Assembly (NCBI RefSeq): GCF_026167665.1
Contig: NZ_CP098740.1
Span: 1,054,001 to 1,118,000, forward strand
Direction: 5' to 3'
Source: Streptomyces drozdowiczii
GTDB taxonomy: Bacteria > Actinomycetota > Actinomycetes > Streptomycetales > Streptomycetaceae
Length of the DNA stretch: 64,000 nucleotides
The position numbers and the translations under genes are program-made. Below the pieces are notes generated by a model. That model searched no databases and had not been told where the DNA came from. It saw nothing but the letters and a program-made list of their open reading frames with translations. This document shows positions 34,758-42,099 of the stretch, piece after piece (positions within the stretch are counted from its first letter, which is position 1; the number at the start of each line of letters is the position of its first letter).

Positions 34758-35969
34758 TCACCGGGCGGCCGGGACGACGACACCGGCGCGCAGCAGCCTC
34801 CCCGCGCAGGCGAGGCCGAGGTCGCCGGCCGTGCGCACCTCACCGGCGAGCAGGCGGGCCAGGGCCGGCAGATCGGCCTCCGGGAAGTCCAGCCAGCCGA
34901 CCCGGGTGACCAGGCGACGGCCCTCCAGGCGGGCTTCCAGCGCGCCCCGGAGGCGGACCGGGGTGCCGGGGGCGAGTCCGTTGACTGCGTCGAGCTGGGC
35001 GAGTGGGCCGAGCGGTGCGGGGCGGGCCTGGGCGCGCCGGGTGCGGTGGAAGTGCGGGGCGGGGTCGGCGCCGGTGAGGGCCGCGGCGAGTCGTTCGCGT
35101 ACCGGAGCGGCCTCCTCGTCCGGGCCGGCCACGCCCAGCGGCAGGGAGGCGCGCATCCAGGGGTCGTCGCGCAGCTCCGCAAGCGCGGCGCGCATCAGCT
35201 GTTCGGCGAGGGCGTACCGGGTCCAGGTGTGGACGCCGAGCGTCAGGTGGACGGAGACCTCGCCCTGCGCCTCGGCGGCGTGCAGCCAGCCGCGCGGCAG
35301 GTAGAGGACGTCGCCCGGTGCGAGCACGGTGTCGAGATACGGCTCGGCCGCGGCGGCCTCGGCGACGGCGTCGCGGTGGTCGGTCCAGGGCTGGTCGCGC
35401 AGCGGGTCGGGGTGCACGGGGCGGTGGACGATCCAGCGCTTGGTGCCCTCGGTCTGGAGCACGAAGACGTCGTGGACGTCGTAGTGGGCGTCGAAGCCGC
35501 GGTTCTGCGGCGGGGTGACGTAGGCGTTGGCCTGCACCGGGTGGCCGAGTTCGGCGCCGAGCACGGCGGTGAGGTCGCCGACCGGGGCCCAGGTGCGGTG
35601 GAGCGCTTGCAGGACGAGCGTGGCGCCGTCGGCGAACTCCCGCCACAGCGCGGTGTCGTCGGCCTGGTCGCCGATGGTGGCGCCGACCCCGGCGGGCGAG
35701 GTGAACGAGGCGTCGGGCAGCGTGGCGCCGTTCTTGGCGACGCGGAGGAACGGCGTACGCAGTCCGCGCCGGGAGACGAGTTCGTCCACGGCGGCGGCCG
35801 GGAAGAGGTCGGAGAAGTCACCGGCCCGGCGGGTGAGCAGGGCCTCGCGGCCCCAGAAGTCGCGGGCGAACGTGTCCAGGCTCGTGCCTGGTGTCAGGCG
35901 CGACTCCAGGACCCCGGGGGCCGCCGTCGCGGCCGGGGGGTCCTGGGTGCCGGTCGGGGTTGTGCTCAA
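34758..35969 (-). CDS. JmjC-domain cupin oxygenase (ribosomal-oxygenase-like)
   Basis: The 403-residue protein has a JmjC double-stranded beta-helix: the iron ligands HYDVHD and the distal histidine in LYLPRGWLHAAEA, with the 2-oxoglutarate lysine region KRWIVHRP. A C-terminal winged region follows, as in the YcfD/MINA53/NO66 class, which hydroxylates Arg or His of ribosomal proteins. Translation begins at TTG 35969, overlapping the stop of the repeat-protein gene (TTGA), without its own ribosome site, so the two are coupled. The substrate is unknown; the coupled repeat protein is a candidate. Confidence 0.87.
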   Translation of the reverse strand: MSTTPTGTQDPPAATAAPGVLESRLTPGTSLDTFARDFWGREALLTRRAGDFSDLFPAAAVDELVSRRGLRTPFLRVAKNGATLPDASFTSPAGVGATIGDQADDTALWREFADGATLVLQALHRTWAPVGDLTAVLGAELGHPVQANAYVTPPQNRGFDAHYDVHDVFVLQTEGTKRWIVHRPVHPDPLRDQPWTDHRDAVAEAAAAEPYLDTVLAPGDVLYLPRGWLHAAEAQGEVSVHLTLGVHTWTRYALAEQLMRAALAELRDDPWMRASLPLGVAGPDEEAAPVRERLAAALTGADPAPHFHRTRRAQARPAPLGPLAQLDAVNGLAPGTPVRLRGALEARLEGRRLVTRVGWLDFPEADLPALARLLAGEVRTAGDLGLACAGRLLRAGVVVPAAR

Positions 35970-36286
35970 GAACGGTCCGCGCCGCCGTCGGCCCCGCCGT
36001 CCTGGACGCCCGGGGTGCCCGCGGCGCCGCCGTCGGCCGGGCCCTCGGCGCCACCGTCCGCGCCACCGTCGTGGACGCCCGGCGTACCGGCCGCGCCGCC
36101 GTCGGCCGGGCCCTCGGCCCCGCCGTCCGCACCGCCGTCCTGCACGCCCGGCGTACCGGCCGCGCCGCCGTCCGCGGGGCCCTCGGCCCCTCCGTCGGCG
36201 CCGCCGTCGTGGACGCCCGGCGTGCCCGCCGCGCCGCCGTCCGCGGGGCCTTCCTGCTGGTTCGGGTCCTGCTCGGGGCTGGTCAT
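35966..36286 (-). CDS. tandem-repeat protein, 4 x 23 residues
   Basis: The 106-residue product is an 11-residue leader (MTSPEQDPNQQ), four exact copies of a 23-residue unit and a tail DRS. The unit is EGPADGGAAGTPGV, then one variable residue, then DGGADGGA; the variable residue is H, Q, H, Q in order. Everything else in the protein is invariant although synonymous bases vary between copies, which indicates selection on the protein. ATG 36286 has an excellent ribosome site (GGGAGG). It is acidic, has no cysteine or aromatic residue, no signal and no hydrophobic segment. It is the first gene of an operon with a JmjC oxygenase; function is unknown. Confidence 0.8.
   Translation of the reverse strand: MTSPEQDPNQQEGPADGGAAGTPGVHDGGADGGAEGPADGGAAGTPGVQDGGADGGAEGPADGGAAGTPGVHDGGADGGAEGPADGGAAGTPGVQDGGADGGADRS
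35978..36253 (-). repeat. four in-frame 69-bp tandem repeats
   Basis: The repeats span 276 bp and encode the four 23-residue units described above. Copies differ at several third positions and at one codon (His or Gln), giving an alternating pattern that suggests a 138-bp doubled unit. Confidence 0.85.
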
Positions 36287-36316
36287 GGTTTCCTCCCGCG
36301 CATCGAACGGCTGGGG

Positions 36317-36400
36317 CCGGACCCGTAGCGGGGTCCGGTGGTGAGGCACGGCGGTGCCACGGGGGGCACCGCCGCGACCAGCCTACCGCTATGGGCGGTA
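36317..36400. promoter_or_regulatory. three dyads in the leader of the repeat-protein operon
   Basis: Upstream of the operon lie CCGGACCC/GGGTCCGG (36317-36338), GGCGGTGCC/GGCACCGCC (36350-36373) and TACCGC/GCGGTA with a 5-nt gap (36384-36400). The first two could form leader hairpins; the third looks like an operator. Confidence 0.45.
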
Positions 36401-36625: not shown

Positions 36626-36715
36626 CCCGGGGGCCGGGCGCCACCGCCGGTGCCCGCGCAACTGGTGGTGCAGGTGTGCGAATTGATCGCCGCCATGGTT
36701 AGGATCACCGACGGC

Positions 36716-36791
36716 AAGGCTGTAGCGCAGAGGTCGTCGCGCCCTAGCTGCAAGCTGGAGGACGTCGGTTCGAATCCGACCGGCCTTGCCA
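36716..36791 (+). tRNA. atypical tRNA, anticodon GCA (Cys by anticodon)
   Basis: A 76-nt cloverleaf can be drawn: acceptor AAGGCTG/CGGCCTT with an encoded CCA, D stem GCGC/GCGC, anticodon loop CTGCAAG on stem CCTAG/CTGGA, and T arm GTCGG-TTCGAAT-CCGAC. The anticodon GCA at 36750-36752 reads Cys codons. Oddities are G at the discriminator instead of the U expected for cysteine, no base 26 between D and anticodon stems, a C-A pair at 27-43, and GGC/GCC flanks that would extend the acceptor stem to 10 bp. It lies 26 bp upstream of the LRR gene. Isotype is uncertain. Confidence 0.7.
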
Positions 36792-36817
36792 CCTTTTCTC
36801 AGACGCGGGGGTAAGAG

Positions 36818-37954
36818 ATGACGCAGCCGACACCGGTGCGCTGTCCGGCCATCGAACATCCGGACCTGCCCCTCGCCGACCCGGCGTCGCTGGGCCCGCT
36901 GCTCGACCGGCTGGCGGCGCAGGAGCCCGTCGCGGCCGACGAGGCGTTCCCGCTGGGCGCGCTGCGCGCCGACGGACGCGTCGACCTCTGCAAGCAGGGG
37001 CTCGGCGCGGCCGGCGCCGCCCGGGTCATGCCCGCCGTCGCCCGCTCCCCGCACGCCACCCACGTCCTGCTCGGCACCAACTCCCTGGGCGACGAGGGCG
37101 CGAGAGCCGTGGCGGCGGCGACGGCCGGGGCCGACCACGGGCTGCACACCCTCTACCTCGGCTGCAACCGCATCGGCGCCGAAGGGACCGCCGCCCTCGC
37201 CGCCGCCCTGGCCGACGACGCCACCGTCCGGGCCCTCTGGCTCAAGCGCAACCCCCTCGGCGACGCGGGGGTCCGCGCCCTGGTCCCGATGCTCCGGCGC
37301 AACACCGCGCTGCGCACCCTCGACCTGGTCAACACCGGGGTCACGGCCGACGGACTCGCCGCCCTGCTGGACGTCCTGAGCACCCGGCCGCGCCCCGTCG
37401 AGCGGCTCTTCCTCGGCGGCAACGGGCTGGGCGCCGACGCCGCGCCGCTGCTCGCCCGGCTGATCCTGGACGCCGGGGTGCGGGAGCTGTACCTGCCGTC
37501 CAACCACCTCGGCGACAAGGGCGCCGCCGTCCTCGCGGGCGCCGCCGACCCGTCCCGCCCCATCCGGCTCGGCCTGGGCGGCAACGGCATCGGGCCCGAG
37601 GGAGCCCGCGCCCTGGCCGGTGCGCTCGACGGGATCGAGGCGCTCGACCTGGGCCGGCCGCCCTCGGAACGCTCCCTGGGCGCCCCGCCCAACGCCACCG
37701 GGGACCTCGGGGCGCACGCGCTGGCCGAGGCGCTGCCCGGCAGCCCGCTGCGCCGCCTCGAACTCAGCCACACCGGGCTGACCGGGCGCGGGGCGAAGAC
37801 CCTGCTCGCCGCCGTCGCCCCCGGGTCCCGGCTGGAGTACGTGGGCCTGGGCCCCGGGCTGCCGCGCCGGGTGAAGCGTTCCTTCGCGACGCTGCTGCGC
37901 CCGGACGGCGGGGCCCACGCCGATCTGCGCGCGGTCAGGAGCCTGTACCGATGA
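36818..37954 (+). CDS. leucine-rich repeat protein (ribonuclease-inhibitor type)
   Basis: The 378-residue protein has about eight RI-type repeats of 27-29 residues, recognisable as LYLGCNRIGAEGTAALAAAL, LWLKRNPLGDAGVRAL, LFLGGNGLGADA, LYLPSNHLGDKGAAVLAGA and LGLGGNGIGPEGARALAGAL. Such LRRs form protein-binding horseshoes; no enzymatic motif is present. The start follows GGGGGTAAGAG. Only 26 bp separate it from the tRNA gene, so its promoter must be in or before the tRNA. It heads a four-gene operon in which each next gene overlaps or nearly touches the previous one. Confidence 0.88.
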   Translation: MTQPTPVRCPAIEHPDLPLADPASLGPLLDRLAAQEPVAADEAFPLGALRADGRVDLCKQGLGAAGAARVMPAVARSPHATHVLLGTNSLGDEGARAVAAATAGADHGLHTLYLGCNRIGAEGTAALAAALADDATVRALWLKRNPLGDAGVRALVPMLRRNTALRTLDLVNTGVTADGLAALLDVLSTRPRPVERLFLGGNGLGADAAPLLARLILDAGVRELYLPSNHLGDKGAAVLAGAADPSRPIRLGLGGNGIGPEGARALAGALDGIEALDLGRPPSERSLGAPPNATGDLGAHALAEALPGSPLRRLELSHTGLTGRGAKTLLAAVAPGSRLEYVGLGPGLPRRVKRSFATLLRPDGGAHADLRAVRSLYR

Positions 37955-39699
37955 GCCGGCGGGACACCGCTCTGTTCCTGTCGTCGGAGCAGGCGGCGAG
38001 CTGGCGCCAGGTCCGCCGCTACGCCGTGCCACGGGCCGTCATCGAGGAGTCGGCCGCGCTGCGGGAGGCCGGCGACTGGCGCGGGGCCTGCGCGGCGGCC
38101 GGCTTCGAGGTGCGCATCGACCCGGACAAGGTCTCCGCCCGGTACGGCCCCGAGACCGCCGAAGCCCTCCTCGCCGACCTCCGGGACCTGGTGCCGGACC
38201 TGGTGCGCTGGCACCTGCCCCGGATCCTGGCGGGCCGCTCGACCCTGGCGACCGACCGGACCGTCCTCCTCGCGGGCTACGGCTCCGCGCCCGGCGCCTA
38301 TCTCCAGCTGTCCACCCCGGCCATGGTCGACGGCCCCCAGCGCCTCCCGCTCCGCTTCGGCCCGCCGAAGCGCCGGGCCGGGTACGGACTCACCGACGAC
38401 TGGCGGTCGCTCGGGCACCTGTGGCGCGCGAGCGAGGCCGGTGGGCTGCGCGCACGGGCCGGCGGCGCGGACCGGCTGCCGTTCCTCGCGGCCGACGGCA
38501 CCCCGCTCCCGGCGGACCTGCTGCCGCCGGACGAGGACCCGGGCAGCGGCGACCCGGTGGCCCGCGCCGAATGGATCCATCTGCTGTACGCGGACGAGCG
38601 GATCGCCGACGCGCTGGCGGCGGCCGGGATCGAGTGGGACCCGACGCCGCCGGAGATGCCCTCGTACTACCGGACCACCCCGGAGACGATCGTGGCCGGT
38701 CTCGCGCTGGACGTGCCCCGGCTGGAGGCGGAGGTGCGCCGGTTCGCGGAGCTCGTCGGGGCGGAGGTGTTCCAGATCGGCCAGGACTGGCGGGCGCGGG
38801 TCCGGCTCGACTTCACCGGCCCCGGCCTCGGCGGCCGGCTGCGGATCAGGCTCGTCAACCGCGAGGCGGCCGACGGCGCGGTCTTCCTGCCCGAGGCGGT
38901 CTGGCGCAGGATGCCCGACCTGGAGCTGCTGGCCGACGGCGTCCTGACCCCCACGGACCTGCATCCCCTGGTGGCCCGGTCGCTCTTCCCGGACCACGAG
39001 GGGCCGTTCGGGCCGCCCGGGGTCACGCCGCCCGCTCCGGTCCGGGTGCGCTGCCGGGGCGAGTGGCACGAGGTCGGCTTCCGGGACGGGACGCTGACCT
39101 CTCCGCACACCGCGCAGGAGCGGCAGCGCGAGAGCGCCCTGCGCGCGTTCGGCGGGGCGGTCACCGGCTGCTTCGCCGTCGAGCACGCCTGCCTCACCGG
39201 GACGGGCCGGCTGCCCAGGGCGCTGGCCGCCCAGCGGCGCGACCTCTTCCTGCGCGCCCAGCACGGGGACACGGCGGGGGTCGTGGCGCTGCTGGACGCG
39301 GGCGTCGATCCGCGCGTCCGGGACGGCGGCAAACACACGCTGCTCCACGTCCTGCCGCTGCTCGACCACACCGTGCTGCTCCCCCGGCTGCTGGCGGCCG
39401 GCCTCGACCTGGAGGCCAGGGACCACCGCGAGCGCACCCCGCTGAGCGCCGCCGTGTCGGGGCGCGGGACGGCGGCGCTCGTCCGGGACCTGCTCGACGC
39501 GGGCGCCCGGATCGACGTGAGCGACCAGACGGAGCTCTCGCTGGAGCAGATGATCCGCAAGTACCGGCGGACCGATCTGCGGTTCCTCGCGGAACGGGTG
39601 CTGAAGGAGCACCCGGACGCCGGCTCGGAGTGGTGGGACGAGTGGGACGAGGACGCGGAGGACGACGGCTACGACGACGAGGAAGGTGACGACGCGTGA
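37951..39699 (+). CDS. ankyrin-repeat protein with unknown N-terminal domain
   Basis: The 582-residue protein starts inside the LRR stop (ATGA). The first ~430 residues are not a family I recognise; they contain segments such as WHLPRILAGRSTLATD and VFQIGQDWRARVRLDF. From about 430 ankyrin-type repeats appear (LFLRAQHGDTAGVVALLDAG, TLLHVLPLLDHTVLLPRLLA, ERTPLSAAVSGRGTAALV). The C-terminus is highly acidic (DEWDEDAEDDGYDDEE). It probably acts as adaptor or substrate recogniser for the MoxR/vWA pair. Confidence 0.82.
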   Translation: MSRRDTALFLSSEQAASWRQVRRYAVPRAVIEESAALREAGDWRGACAAAGFEVRIDPDKVSARYGPETAEALLADLRDLVPDLVRWHLPRILAGRSTLATDRTVLLAGYGSAPGAYLQLSTPAMVDGPQRLPLRFGPPKRRAGYGLTDDWRSLGHLWRASEAGGLRARAGGADRLPFLAADGTPLPADLLPPDEDPGSGDPVARAEWIHLLYADERIADALAAAGIEWDPTPPEMPSYYRTTPETIVAGLALDVPRLEAEVRRFAELVGAEVFQIGQDWRARVRLDFTGPGLGGRLRIRLVNREAADGAVFLPEAVWRRMPDLELLADGVLTPTDLHPLVARSLFPDHEGPFGPPGVTPPAPVRVRCRGEWHEVGFRDGTLTSPHTAQERQRESALRAFGGAVTGCFAVEHACLTGTGRLPRALAAQRRDLFLRAQHGDTAGVVALLDAGVDPRVRDGGKHTLLHVLPLLDHTVLLPRLLAAGLDLEARDHRERTPLSAAVSGRGTAALVRDLLDAGARIDVSDQTELSLEQMIRKYRRTDLRFLAERVLKEHPDAGSEWWDEWDEDAEDDGYDDEEGDDA

Positions 39700-40907
39700 G
39701 CACCGCCGCTCCCCGCATCCCCGCACAGGCGCCGCACCCCCTGGACGCCGCCGACGCGCTCAACGGGCGGCTGCGCGCCACCCGGACCGAGACCGTGGCG
39801 AACCCGCAGCTCGAAGCGCTGGCCCTGGCGGTGACCGCCAATCAGCCGGTGCTGCTCTGGGGCGAGCCGGGCATCGGGAAGTCGGCGGGGCTCGAACAGC
39901 TCGCGGCGGGCCTCGGCCTCGGCCTGGAGACCGTCATCGCCAGCGTGCACGAGCCGTCGGACTTCGCGGGGCTGCCCGTCGTCGGGGACGACCCGGCCAC
40001 CACCGGGGTCCCGATGGCGCCGCCGGACTGGGCGGTCCGGCTCGCCCGGAAGGGCCAGGGGCTGCTGTTCTTCGACGAGTTGTCCTCCGCTCCCCCGGCC
40101 GTGCAGGCCGCCCTCCTCCGCGTCGTCCTGGAACGCCGGGTGGGCAGCCTGACCCTCCCCGACGCCGTACGCATCGTGGCCGCGGCCAATCCGCCGTCCA
40201 GCGCGGCGGACGGCTGGCACCTGAGCCCCCCGCTCGCCAACCGCTTCGTGCACCTGCACTGGACGCACGACCCGCGCACCGTGGCACGCGGCATGGCCGG
40301 CACCTGGCCCGAGGCGCCCGTCCCCGTGGTCGATCCCGCCCGGACCGCCGGTGCGGTGGCCAGGGCCCGGGGCGCGGTCTCCGGGTTCCTCACCGCGCGC
40401 CCGGGTCTGGTGCACCACCTCCCCGCCGACGCGGAGGGCCGGGGCAGGGCCTGGCCGTCACCCCGGACCTGGGACATGGCGCTGCGGCTGCTCGCCGCCG
40501 GCTACGCGACCGGCACCGGCCGGGACGCCGTCGCCGCCGCCCTGACGGGGGCCGTCGGGGACGGGGCGGGCATCGAGCTGCTTTCGTACCTGGAGAATCT
40601 GGACCTTCCCGACCCGGACCGGGTGCTGGCCGATCCGGACGCCTTCGCGCTGCCCGAGCGCGGCGACCGGCAACTGGCGTTCCTGATCGCGGTGGTGGCC
40701 GCCGTGCAGGCCGAGCCGACCCGCCCGCGCTGGGAGGCGGGCTGGGCGGTGCTGGCGAAGGCCGTCGCAGCGGGCGTGCCGGATGTGGCGGCCCGGGCGG
40801 CGATGGACCTGGCGGCGATGCGGGACACCGACTGGCCGGTCCCGGAGGGCATCGACGCCTTCCTGGAACTCCTCCAGCTCTCCGGCGCGCTGCCGGGAAG
40901 CGCCTGA
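39696..40907 (+). CDS. MoxR-type AAA+ ATPase
   Basis: The 403-residue AAA+ protein has Walker A GEPGIGKSA, Walker B LLFFDELSSA, sensor 1 RIVAAANPPSSAADG and a second-region arginine ANRFVHLHW. This is the MoxR pattern of chaperone-like ATPases that work with vWA proteins. GTG 39696 overlaps the ankyrin stop as GTGA. The gene is followed after 4 bp by the vWA gene. Confidence 0.9.
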   Translation: MSTAAPRIPAQAPHPLDAADALNGRLRATRTETVANPQLEALALAVTANQPVLLWGEPGIGKSAGLEQLAAGLGLGLETVIASVHEPSDFAGLPVVGDDPATTGVPMAPPDWAVRLARKGQGLLFFDELSSAPPAVQAALLRVVLERRVGSLTLPDAVRIVAAANPPSSAADGWHLSPPLANRFVHLHWTHDPRTVARGMAGTWPEAPVPVVDPARTAGAVARARGAVSGFLTARPGLVHHLPADAEGRGRAWPSPRTWDMALRLLAAGYATGTGRDAVAAALTGAVGDGAGIELLSYLENLDLPDPDRVLADPDAFALPERGDRQLAFLIAVVAAVQAEPTRPRWEAGWAVLAKAVAAGVPDVAARAAMDLAAMRDTDWPVPEGIDAFLELLQLSGALPGSA

Positions 40908-40911
40908 GGCC

Positions 40912-42099
40912 GTGTCCGTACCCGCGCGGCTCACGCTGGACCACACCAAGCTGCTGGCGGCGCGTTACCGGGCGGCGAGCGAACGGCCCTATCTCGCCAC
41001 GGCGTTGTACGCGCTGTCGGTGGTGGCGAGCGACCGGGTGCCGACCATGGGCGTGGACCGGCACTGGCGCTGCTATGTGTCGCCCGACTTCGTGGAGCGG
41101 ACGCCGGTCGCCGAGCTGGCCGGGGTGTGGGTGCACGAGGTCGCGCATCTGCTGCGCGACCACCACGGCCGGGCCGCCCGGCTCCCGGCGGCCGACCAGC
41201 GCGACGCGCACCGGGTCAACGTCGCCCAGGACTGCGAGATCAACGACGACCTGATCAGCGACGGGCTGGCGCTGCCGGAGGGGCGGATGGAACCGGGGCT
41301 CTTCGGGCTGCCGTCCGGTCAGCTCTTCGAGACGTACCTGCCCGCGCTGCCGCCGGGTCCGCCGCGGCACAACTGCGGTTCCGGCGCACACGGCCGCCCC
41401 GAGCCGTGGGAGCTGCCCGGTTCGGAGGGGCCGTCCCCGCTGGGCGCCACGGAGGCGGAGGCGCTGCGGAGGCGTACGGCGGAGTCGATGCGCGCCCATC
41501 AGCGCACCCGGGGCAGCCTTCCGGCGGGCTGGCGGCGGTGGGCCGAGGAAATCCTGGAACCGACGGTGGACTGGCGGCAGGCGCTGGCCGGTGCGGTACG
41601 GGAGGCGGCGGCCTGGGCCTCCGGGGCGGTGGACTACACCTACCGCCGCCCGTCCCGGCGCGGCGCGGCCCTGCGCGGTGTCGTCCTGCCGACGCTGCGC
41701 CGCCCGCTGCCCCGGGTGGCCGTCGTGGTCGACACCTCGGGCTCGATGGGCGACGACGAACTGGCCGCCGCGCTCGGCGAGGTCACCGGGGTGCTGCGGG
41801 AGGTGGGCATCCGGGGCAACCGGGTCGCCGTGCTGGCCTGCGACGCCGATGTGCACGCCGTGTCCCGGGTGACCTCCGCCGACCAGGTCGCGCTGGGCGG
41901 GGGCGGCGGCACCGACATGCGGGTGGGCATCGCCCGGGCGCTGGCCGCCCCGGAGCGCCCCGGCATCGTGGTGGTCCTCACCGACGGGCACACCCCGTGG
42001 CCCGACGAGTCGCCCTCGTGCCGGCTCGTCGCCGCGCTCATCGGGCCGGACGCGCCGCAGCCGCCGTCGTGGATCGAGACGGTCCGGGTCCCCTCCTAG
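40912..42099 (+). CDS. DUF2201-type metallopeptidase-like protein with vWA domain
   Basis: The 395-residue protein has an N-terminal zincin-like motif in VWVHEVAHLLRDHHG (HExxH with further histidines), then a variable middle, then a C-terminal vWA-like domain. The vWA domain has the MIDAS sequence VVVDTSGSMGDDEL and the segments GGGGGTDMRVGI and VVLTDGHTPW. This matches the putative metallopeptidase/vWA family that accompanies MoxR ATPases. It ends in CTAG, sharing its stop with the convergent lipoprotein gene. Proteolytic activity is inferred only from the motif. Confidence 0.88.
   Translation: MSVPARLTLDHTKLLAARYRAASERPYLATALYALSVVASDRVPTMGVDRHWRCYVSPDFVERTPVAELAGVWVHEVAHLLRDHHGRAARLPAADQRDAHRVNVAQDCEINDDLISDGLALPEGRMEPGLFGLPSGQLFETYLPALPPGPPRHNCGSGAHGRPEPWELPGSEGPSPLGATEAEALRRRTAESMRAHQRTRGSLPAGWRRWAEEILEPTVDWRQALAGAVREAAAWASGAVDYTYRRPSRRGAALRGVVLPTLRRPLPRVAVVVDTSGSMGDDELAAALGEVTGVLREVGIRGNRVAVLACDADVHAVSRVTSADQVALGGGGGTDMRVGIARALAAPERPGIVVVLTDGHTPWPDESPSCRLVAALIGPDAPQPPSWIETVRVPS

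Follow-up and report, generated by a model that had tools for sequence, protein, structure and literature searches.

To our knowledge, the clients of the machines formed by MoxR-type AAA+ ATPases and von Willebrand factor A (vWA) proteins, such as RavA–ViaA and NorQ–NorD, are mostly unknown. PMC9976466 describes MoxR–vWA pairs as remodellers, and parts of PMC7159879 (eLife 2020) treat ternary systems of MoxR, vWA and beta-propeller proteins. An RNA with a tRNA-like domain is known from the rsr-yrlBA-rtcBA operon, where, according to sections of PMC7790460, the domain of YrlA RNA was proposed as a possible anticodon nuclease inhibitor, and YrlA fragments were undetected. Here we analyse an operon headed by a tRNA-like RNA in a 64,000-nucleotide stretch of the Streptomyces drozdowiczii genome (7.39 Mb; contig NZ_CP098740.1, positions 1,054,001 to 1,118,000, forward strand), referred to below as the window. 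Its four genes encode a leucine-rich repeat (LRR) protein, an ankyrin-repeat (ANK) protein, a MoxR-type ATPase and a zincin-like vWA protein of the DUF2201 family. Comparison across genomes suggests that the RNA and these proteins form an unrecognised RNA-plus-protein machine in Streptomyces and the related genomes searched.

The RNA and the LRR gene across genomes

The LRR gene was sought by profile (E 1e-15), scoring the 12 best candidates per Streptomyces genome and 4 per genome of the class, so that homologues may be missed. It was found in 23 of 150 Streptomyces genomes, all of which carry a tRNA-like RNA upstream on the same strand. The two are separated by 41-124 nt in 15 genomes (type 1) and by 1.4-1.7 kb in the other 8 (type 2), where the gap is always filled by a short-chain dehydrogenase/reductase (SDR) gene (Pfam adh_short); a zinc finger at this gap was read by eye from CxxC motifs. 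Across the class, the LRR gene is present in 17 of 384 genomes, seven of them from another family (f19), and a tRNA-like RNA occurs in all 17 loci. It lies upstream on the same strand in 16, including L175, where it was found only by eye; at L181 the sole RNA found is a Trp-class copy beyond the MoxR and DUF2201 genes. Element classes for this placement were assigned by eye, and the sets of loci overlap (for example, L110 of G155 with L009), so the counts are not fully independent. No LRR match was found on plasmids. Judged by these genome comparisons, nothing accompanies the LRR gene more constantly than the RNA does, a relationship that the first-pass annotation of the window had missed, as it had the abnormal character of the RNA.

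At the 13 type-2 loci read, in Streptomyces or near, the MoxR and zincin-vWA pair adjoins the LRR gene in seven, a remnant is left at L111, and five have none; in G067 a DUF2201_N match is absent from the whole genome searched. Both types are combined in one run in the f19 loci L170 and L172, in the order tRNA-like RNA, SDR, LRR, ANK, MoxR and DUF2201, and the same parts are split over two contig ends in G431 (L176, L177). The ANK profile scores above 500 bits at 17 places in 16 genomes; at 16 of these places the cassette includes the RNA, and the remaining one (G171) is split over contigs. At two of the 17, L124 and L142, the RNA and an ANK match occur without LRR, MoxR or DUF2201 (20 kb fetched each), the ANK match of L124 containing a stop. 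At L111, L122 and L178 a copy of the RNA is followed only by a convergent gene. We also considered whether another locus of the window genome, which has a 53% homologue, supplies an SDR; since SDR homologues are present in 130 of 150 Streptomyces, this copy is not evidence and was not used.

A scan for relatives seeded with close ANK matches, to which ANK-less versions (met in later searches) are invisible, found the four-gene order kept in 22 of 22 cases (21 Streptomyces and one Kitasatospora), so the scattering without conserved order that the first-pass annotation had named as a refutation does not occur in this set. Identity to the window proteins is 86-97% for MoxR, 78-97% for DUF2201, 74-96% for LRR and 53-95% for ANK. 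The flanking genes differ, and the constant unit runs from the tRNA-like element through DUF2201: L003-L008 are flanked on either side by one shared neighbour family, another upstream pair is common to 11 of L009-L024, L013, L014, L015 and L018 have others, and L023 ends at its contig.

Structure and relatives of the RNA

The operon had been described as tRNA-headed, and a tRNA call is indeed found at its head in the window and at the same place in all 22 relative loci, where ARAGORN labels it Cys, Ser, Arg, Leu, Asp or SeC (selenocysteine). The implied ordinary tRNA did not withstand comparison: canonical tRNAs have features such as a 7-bp acceptor helix and U33 before the anticodon, and by its sequence this element, with a 10-bp acceptor, a bulged anticodon stem and a variable anticodon, is something other than an ordinary tRNA-Cys. 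Where ARAGORN labels type-1 elements Asp or Leu, for example, this is in part a register artefact of the bulged stem, and the anticodon loops were counted not from these labels but from an alignment of 23 type-1 loci of Streptomyces and Kitasatospora, window included.

In this alignment the RNA is near-invariant in 23 of 23 loci, with a mean pairwise identity of 95%, compared with 52% for the 60 nt upstream of it and 77% for the downstream leader positions present in the window. A box TA[TG]GATC precedes the first G of the extended helix (GGC) by 6-8 nt in all 23, and no -35 box is evident upstream of the RNA; the placement of the box suggests that transcription may start on the RNA itself. 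The LRR start codon follows the RNA by about 25-110 nt. A leader of ~100 nt between the two is conserved in L006-L014 and L016-L024, where several loci show what looks like an inverted repeat, CGGTCCGTC...GATGGACCG; the leader is missing in the window, L003-L005 and L015.

The long acceptor was examined in 38 type-1 elements from 35 loci, taken with no selection for pairing. At least 9 of the 10 positions are paired in all 38, all 10 in 34 and the whole 3-bp extension in 36, and the next three positions outward are paired in only 5; full pairing of 10 of 10 is seen in 10 of 35 type-2 elements. In a further alignment, both sides have changed in 8 of 10 acceptor pairs and in 2 of 5 T-stem pairs, and 98.8% of cells pair, versus 31-42% with partners slid; these covariation figures are biased, because the alignment consists of 40 of 46 rows that had been preselected for acceptor pairing (38 rows having been set aside earlier), a selection absent from the acceptor test given above. 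The anticodon is not conserved among the 23 loci (GCA 6, GCU 1, GCG 1, UCG 2, UCA 13), its loop is among the most variable parts of the RNA, and position 33 is A in 21, with U33 only in the window and L003. The D and T arms are of the elbow-forming kind. In the window, the D arm reads GCGC-AGAGGTCGTC-GCGC, the anticodon hairpin is bulged and the T arm is normal. By itself, the window RNA is only modestly stable, with a z of -2.64 and folds as good in 5 of 200 shuffles, so the case rests on comparison across loci.

The D-arm signature TAGYGCAGAGGNNGNCRCRC was found at 62 places in 37 of 150 Streptomyces genomes, compared with 3 matches for a reversed control; other members of the RNA family have different stems and anticodons and often stand in arrays of 2-4. 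A free-standing copy labelled Trp CCA, its class assigned by eye, is present in 12 of 16 genomes with type-1 RNA versus 9 of 134 without (Fisher 2.4e-9, kinship uncorrected). The window genome has such a gene beside tRNA-Ser (G000:C1, around 3413489-3413565, minus strand; L085:9973-10049); its body resembles the operon RNA, and it has the Trp loop CTCCAAA in common with the other, distinct tRNA-Trp call of the same genome, around 2878806.

Further tRNA-like genes were met in the searches. A body with D arm CAGAGGTARTGCGCCGCG and T side ATCTCGGAGGACGYCGG is nearly constant in 11 genomes (G004, G015, G018, G026, G111, G123, G133, G152, G167, G168 and G170), with varying anticodon triplets (GTC 2, GGC 2, AGC 1, GAC 2, ATC 4) and an LRR profile match in 0 of 11. 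Another family of the order has arrays of 2-4 tRNA-likes whose anticodons differ (L086, L087, L094, L095, L098, L103, L104); these arrays sit between a ~405-aa protein, for which the one tested (L087) gave no Pfam match, and a gene like those of the major facilitator superfamily. The broad pattern CAGAGG...GGTTCGANYCC was dropped outside Streptomyces, where it matches 279 of 394 class genomes, because most of the matches listed resemble ordinary tRNAs. In viral contigs, the D-arm pattern gave 3 matches, none called tRNA.

Proteins of the operon and a cousin operon

The coordinates, together with Pfam and phmmer, bear out the arrangement given in the first-pass annotation, in which LRR, ANK, MoxR and metallopeptidase-vWA genes follow one another on one strand, LRR and ANK through an ATGA overlap, ANK and MoxR through a GTGA overlap, and MoxR and DUF2201 across a 4-nt gap (Table 1). 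tRNA calls were made with ARAGORN and Rfam, protein domains were assigned with Pfam and defence models with PADLOC.

Table 1. Positions, within the window, of the RNA, the genes and their motifs
Feature	Position	Strand	Remarks
-10-like box TAGGAT	36700..36705	+	7 nt 5' of the first base of the tRNA-like RNA; predicted promoter element
tRNA-like RNA	36713..36790	+	10-bp acceptor helix GGCAAGGCTG/CGGCCTTGCC
ARAGORN tRNA call Cys-GCA	36716-36791		Rfam tRNA 44.2 bits, cut-off 29
LRR protein, 378 aa	36818..37954	+	Pfam PF13516, LRR_6 75 bits
ANK protein, 582 aa	37951..39699	+	N-terminal ~400 residues without Pfam match; ankyrin repeats C-terminal
Ankyrin-repeat segment of ANK protein, residues 433-525	39247..39525	+	Pfam and phmmer
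MoxR-type AAA+ ATPase, 403 aa	39696..40907	+	PF07728, AAA_5 31 bits
GEPGIGKS of MoxR, which we take to be Walker A	39861..39884	+	Read off the sequence
Zincin-like plus vWA protein, 395 aa	40912..42099	+	DUF2201_N 104.5 bits, DUF2201 62.9 bits
Zincin motif HEVAHLLRDHH, DUF2201 protein residues 75-85	41134..41166	+	
vWA MIDAS (metal-ion-dependent adhesion site) motif DTSGSM, DUF2201 protein residues 274-279	41731..41748	+	

The zincin motif pointed out in the first-pass annotation has an intact HExxH: H75, E76 and H79 are invariant in 29 aligned relatives, as are H84 and the MIDAS positions, including T334 and D358. A MoxR-type AAA+ protein stands next to a vWA protein with MIDAS. The first-pass annotation had suggested that the LRR and ankyrin proteins could select substrates for this pair. 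An AlphaFold model of the DUF2201 protein was poor (predicted local distance difference test, pLDDT, 47) and was set aside. In the ANK protein, Ank_2 scores 22.8 bits, under its cut-off of 27.3, and phmmer matches a designed ankyrin chain with E 1.1e-14; hhalign gives only a weak signal, a probability of 30%, for an internal repeat in the N-domain. The LRR protein, called RI-type in the first-pass annotation, is basic in the window (isoelectric point 9.2) and one type-2 LRR is acidic (5.8), so RNA binding is not settled by charge. Upstream of the operon, a small open reading frame with near-perfect repeats (EGPADGGAAGTPGVHDGGADGGA) lies at 35966-36349 on the minus strand, immediately before a JmjC-domain gene.

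Matches to the ANK profile occur in 81 of 150 Streptomyces genomes, mostly through weak cousins (about 95-132 bits). Nine examples were read (L136-L141, L146-L148) of a cousin operon composed of ANK-N, MoxR and DUF2201, which to judge by the profile may be widespread in Streptomyces, and the MoxR-DUF2201 pair is probably, on these comparisons, an older and commoner module that the RNA and LRR joined later. The window genome has a second, divergent MoxR plus DUF2201_N pair (G000:C1:6927289-6930107; L135:7290-10108), with no tRNA-like element in the 20 kb searched.

Possible roles and known systems

Our working interpretation, held tentatively and at somewhat less than an even chance, is that the cassette is an RNA–protein system built on a tRNA mimic. 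What is observed is the sequence of the RNA, the conservation of its pairing, where it lies and that it accompanies the LRR gene. Transcription would probably start on the RNA, whose elbow of D and T arms is of tRNA type, and the 10-bp acceptor and altered anticodon hairpin should exclude it from translation. The LRR protein would be its dedicated partner and the ANK protein would link the RNA/LRR pair to a MoxR hexamer and the zincin-vWA protein, which, from their families, would form an ATP-driven remodelling or proteolytic engine with likely metallopeptidase chemistry; remodelling of a client we infer by analogy with RavA–ViaA and NorQ–NorD. Most likely, the RNA would be bound or cut by a tRNA-acting agent, such as an anticodon nuclease or a tRNA-modifying enzyme, and the proteins might read this event and then act, the RNA possibly serving as bait for tRNA-cleaving enzymes; VapC toxins, for instance, cut tRNAs such as tRNA-Trp. 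Concerning the type-2 loci, SDR proteins can belong to tRNA-binding complexes, an example given in parts of PMC10602865 being human mitochondrial RNase P.

Several results weigh against this interpretation. The tRNA-like RNA and the LRR gene are found in 0 of the 9 cousin operons examined, which implies that the MoxR-DUF2201 engine does not need the RNA. The signature occurs with no LRR match in 15 of the 37 signature genomes, and in most type-2 elements the acceptor is ordinary and the anticodon loop looks normal, so that these may be real tRNAs. The structural check of the ANK protein proposed in the first-pass annotation did give a model (pLDDT 76.6), but the best 50 of 930 Foldseek rows are all ankyrin-type or DARPin complexes, with none for the N-domain. 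For the suggested defence role no support was found: PADLOC gave nothing for the LRR or DUF2201 protein and matches only over the ankyrin and AAA segments of ANK and MoxR (best 5e-8 and 4e-5), and of the twelve gene calls around the operon, the nine searched matched no defence-system model at E 1e-5. We consider it unlikely that the cassette is an RNA-guarded stress or immune system, in which mimics unfit for translation would bait tRNA cutters (toxins, or anticodon nucleases of phages or rivals), their loops changing by an arms race, and an LRR/ANK sensor would signal to a MoxR-driven zincin-vWA effector.

The position of the RNA, with a promoter-like box before it and the LRR start shortly after it in the 23 type-1 loci, would also suit a cis-acting 5' leader, that is, a tRNA-like fold at the mRNA start that offers a cleavage site to tRNA-processing enzymes, or a binding site to a tRNA-binding protein, and so sets operon expression. 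However, the copies followed only by a convergent gene point to action in trans, as do the arrays, in which 2-4 elements carry different anticodons; in addition, a second, free-standing copy co-occurs by genome. A leader is a doubtful explanation, though one to be taken seriously. A structural scaffold or gate, comparable to Y RNA on Ro60/Rsr and serving RNA or protein quality control by LRR, ANK and MoxR with no tRNA-cleaving enzymes, would draw on the tRNA-like domain of YrlA and on the remodelling by MoxR–vWA pairs mentioned above. This too seems unlikely to us, since the fold forms a closed cloverleaf that is complete in itself and not part of a longer, modular RNA, and a scaffold sits poorly with so variable a type-1 anticodon loop.

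That the elements are genuine, unusual tRNA genes that decode under special conditions agrees with their acceptance by ARAGORN and Rfam, with the canonical look of type-2 loops and with the loop that the lone Trp copy has in common with the other tRNA-Trp call. It is nevertheless improbable given the type-1 acceptor, the prevalence of A33 and an anticodon that, at one and the same locus, varies from species to species. The last alternative, an ordinary MoxR-vWA chaperone operon that merely lies beside an unrelated tRNA or integration site, would fit the Streptomyces operons of MoxR-DUF2201 and ANK-N protein without RNA, but is contradicted by an RNA-LRR association that persists in 23 of 23 Streptomyces genomes, in 17 of 17 of the class and through changes of flank, and we regard it as very improbable.

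If the RNA–protein interpretation is right, it would bring an RNA into MoxR-vWA machines, and a tRNA-like RNA tied to one protein family would offer a concrete, testable case of tRNA mimicry in bacteria. Standard tRNA finding labels this RNA tRNA-Cys or tRNA-SeC, which hides a noncoding-RNA component of a protein system, and the family may account for some odd extra tRNA genes in actinomycetes. In the open-licence papers searched we recognised no description of an RNA combined with LRR, ANK, MoxR and DUF2201.

Among known systems, the ternary ones resemble the operon in MoxR and vWA and in a weak bpMoxR score (20 bits, under the cut-off of 27); no propeller match was found in the four operon proteins, and in the main text of PMC7159879 DUF2201 is absent and tRNA appears only in a reference title. 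The Rsr (Ro60)/YrlA RNA repair operon likewise joins a tRNA-like RNA to protein genes, whereas the RNA described here is a full cloverleaf with a long acceptor, and a Pfam search of the four operon proteins and of nine out of the twelve gene calls around them revealed no Ro60-type, RtcB or RtcA protein. The Streptomyces cousin operon has the same gene order, with MoxR 60-64% and DUF2201 49-53% identical, and differs in lacking the LRR gene and the RNA in the nine examples read. With RavA–ViaA and NorQ–NorD, the operon shares a MoxR ATPase adjoining a vWA protein with an intact MIDAS, and it differs from them in the DUF2201 zincin type of that protein, in its LRR and ANK partners and in the tRNA-like RNA at its head.

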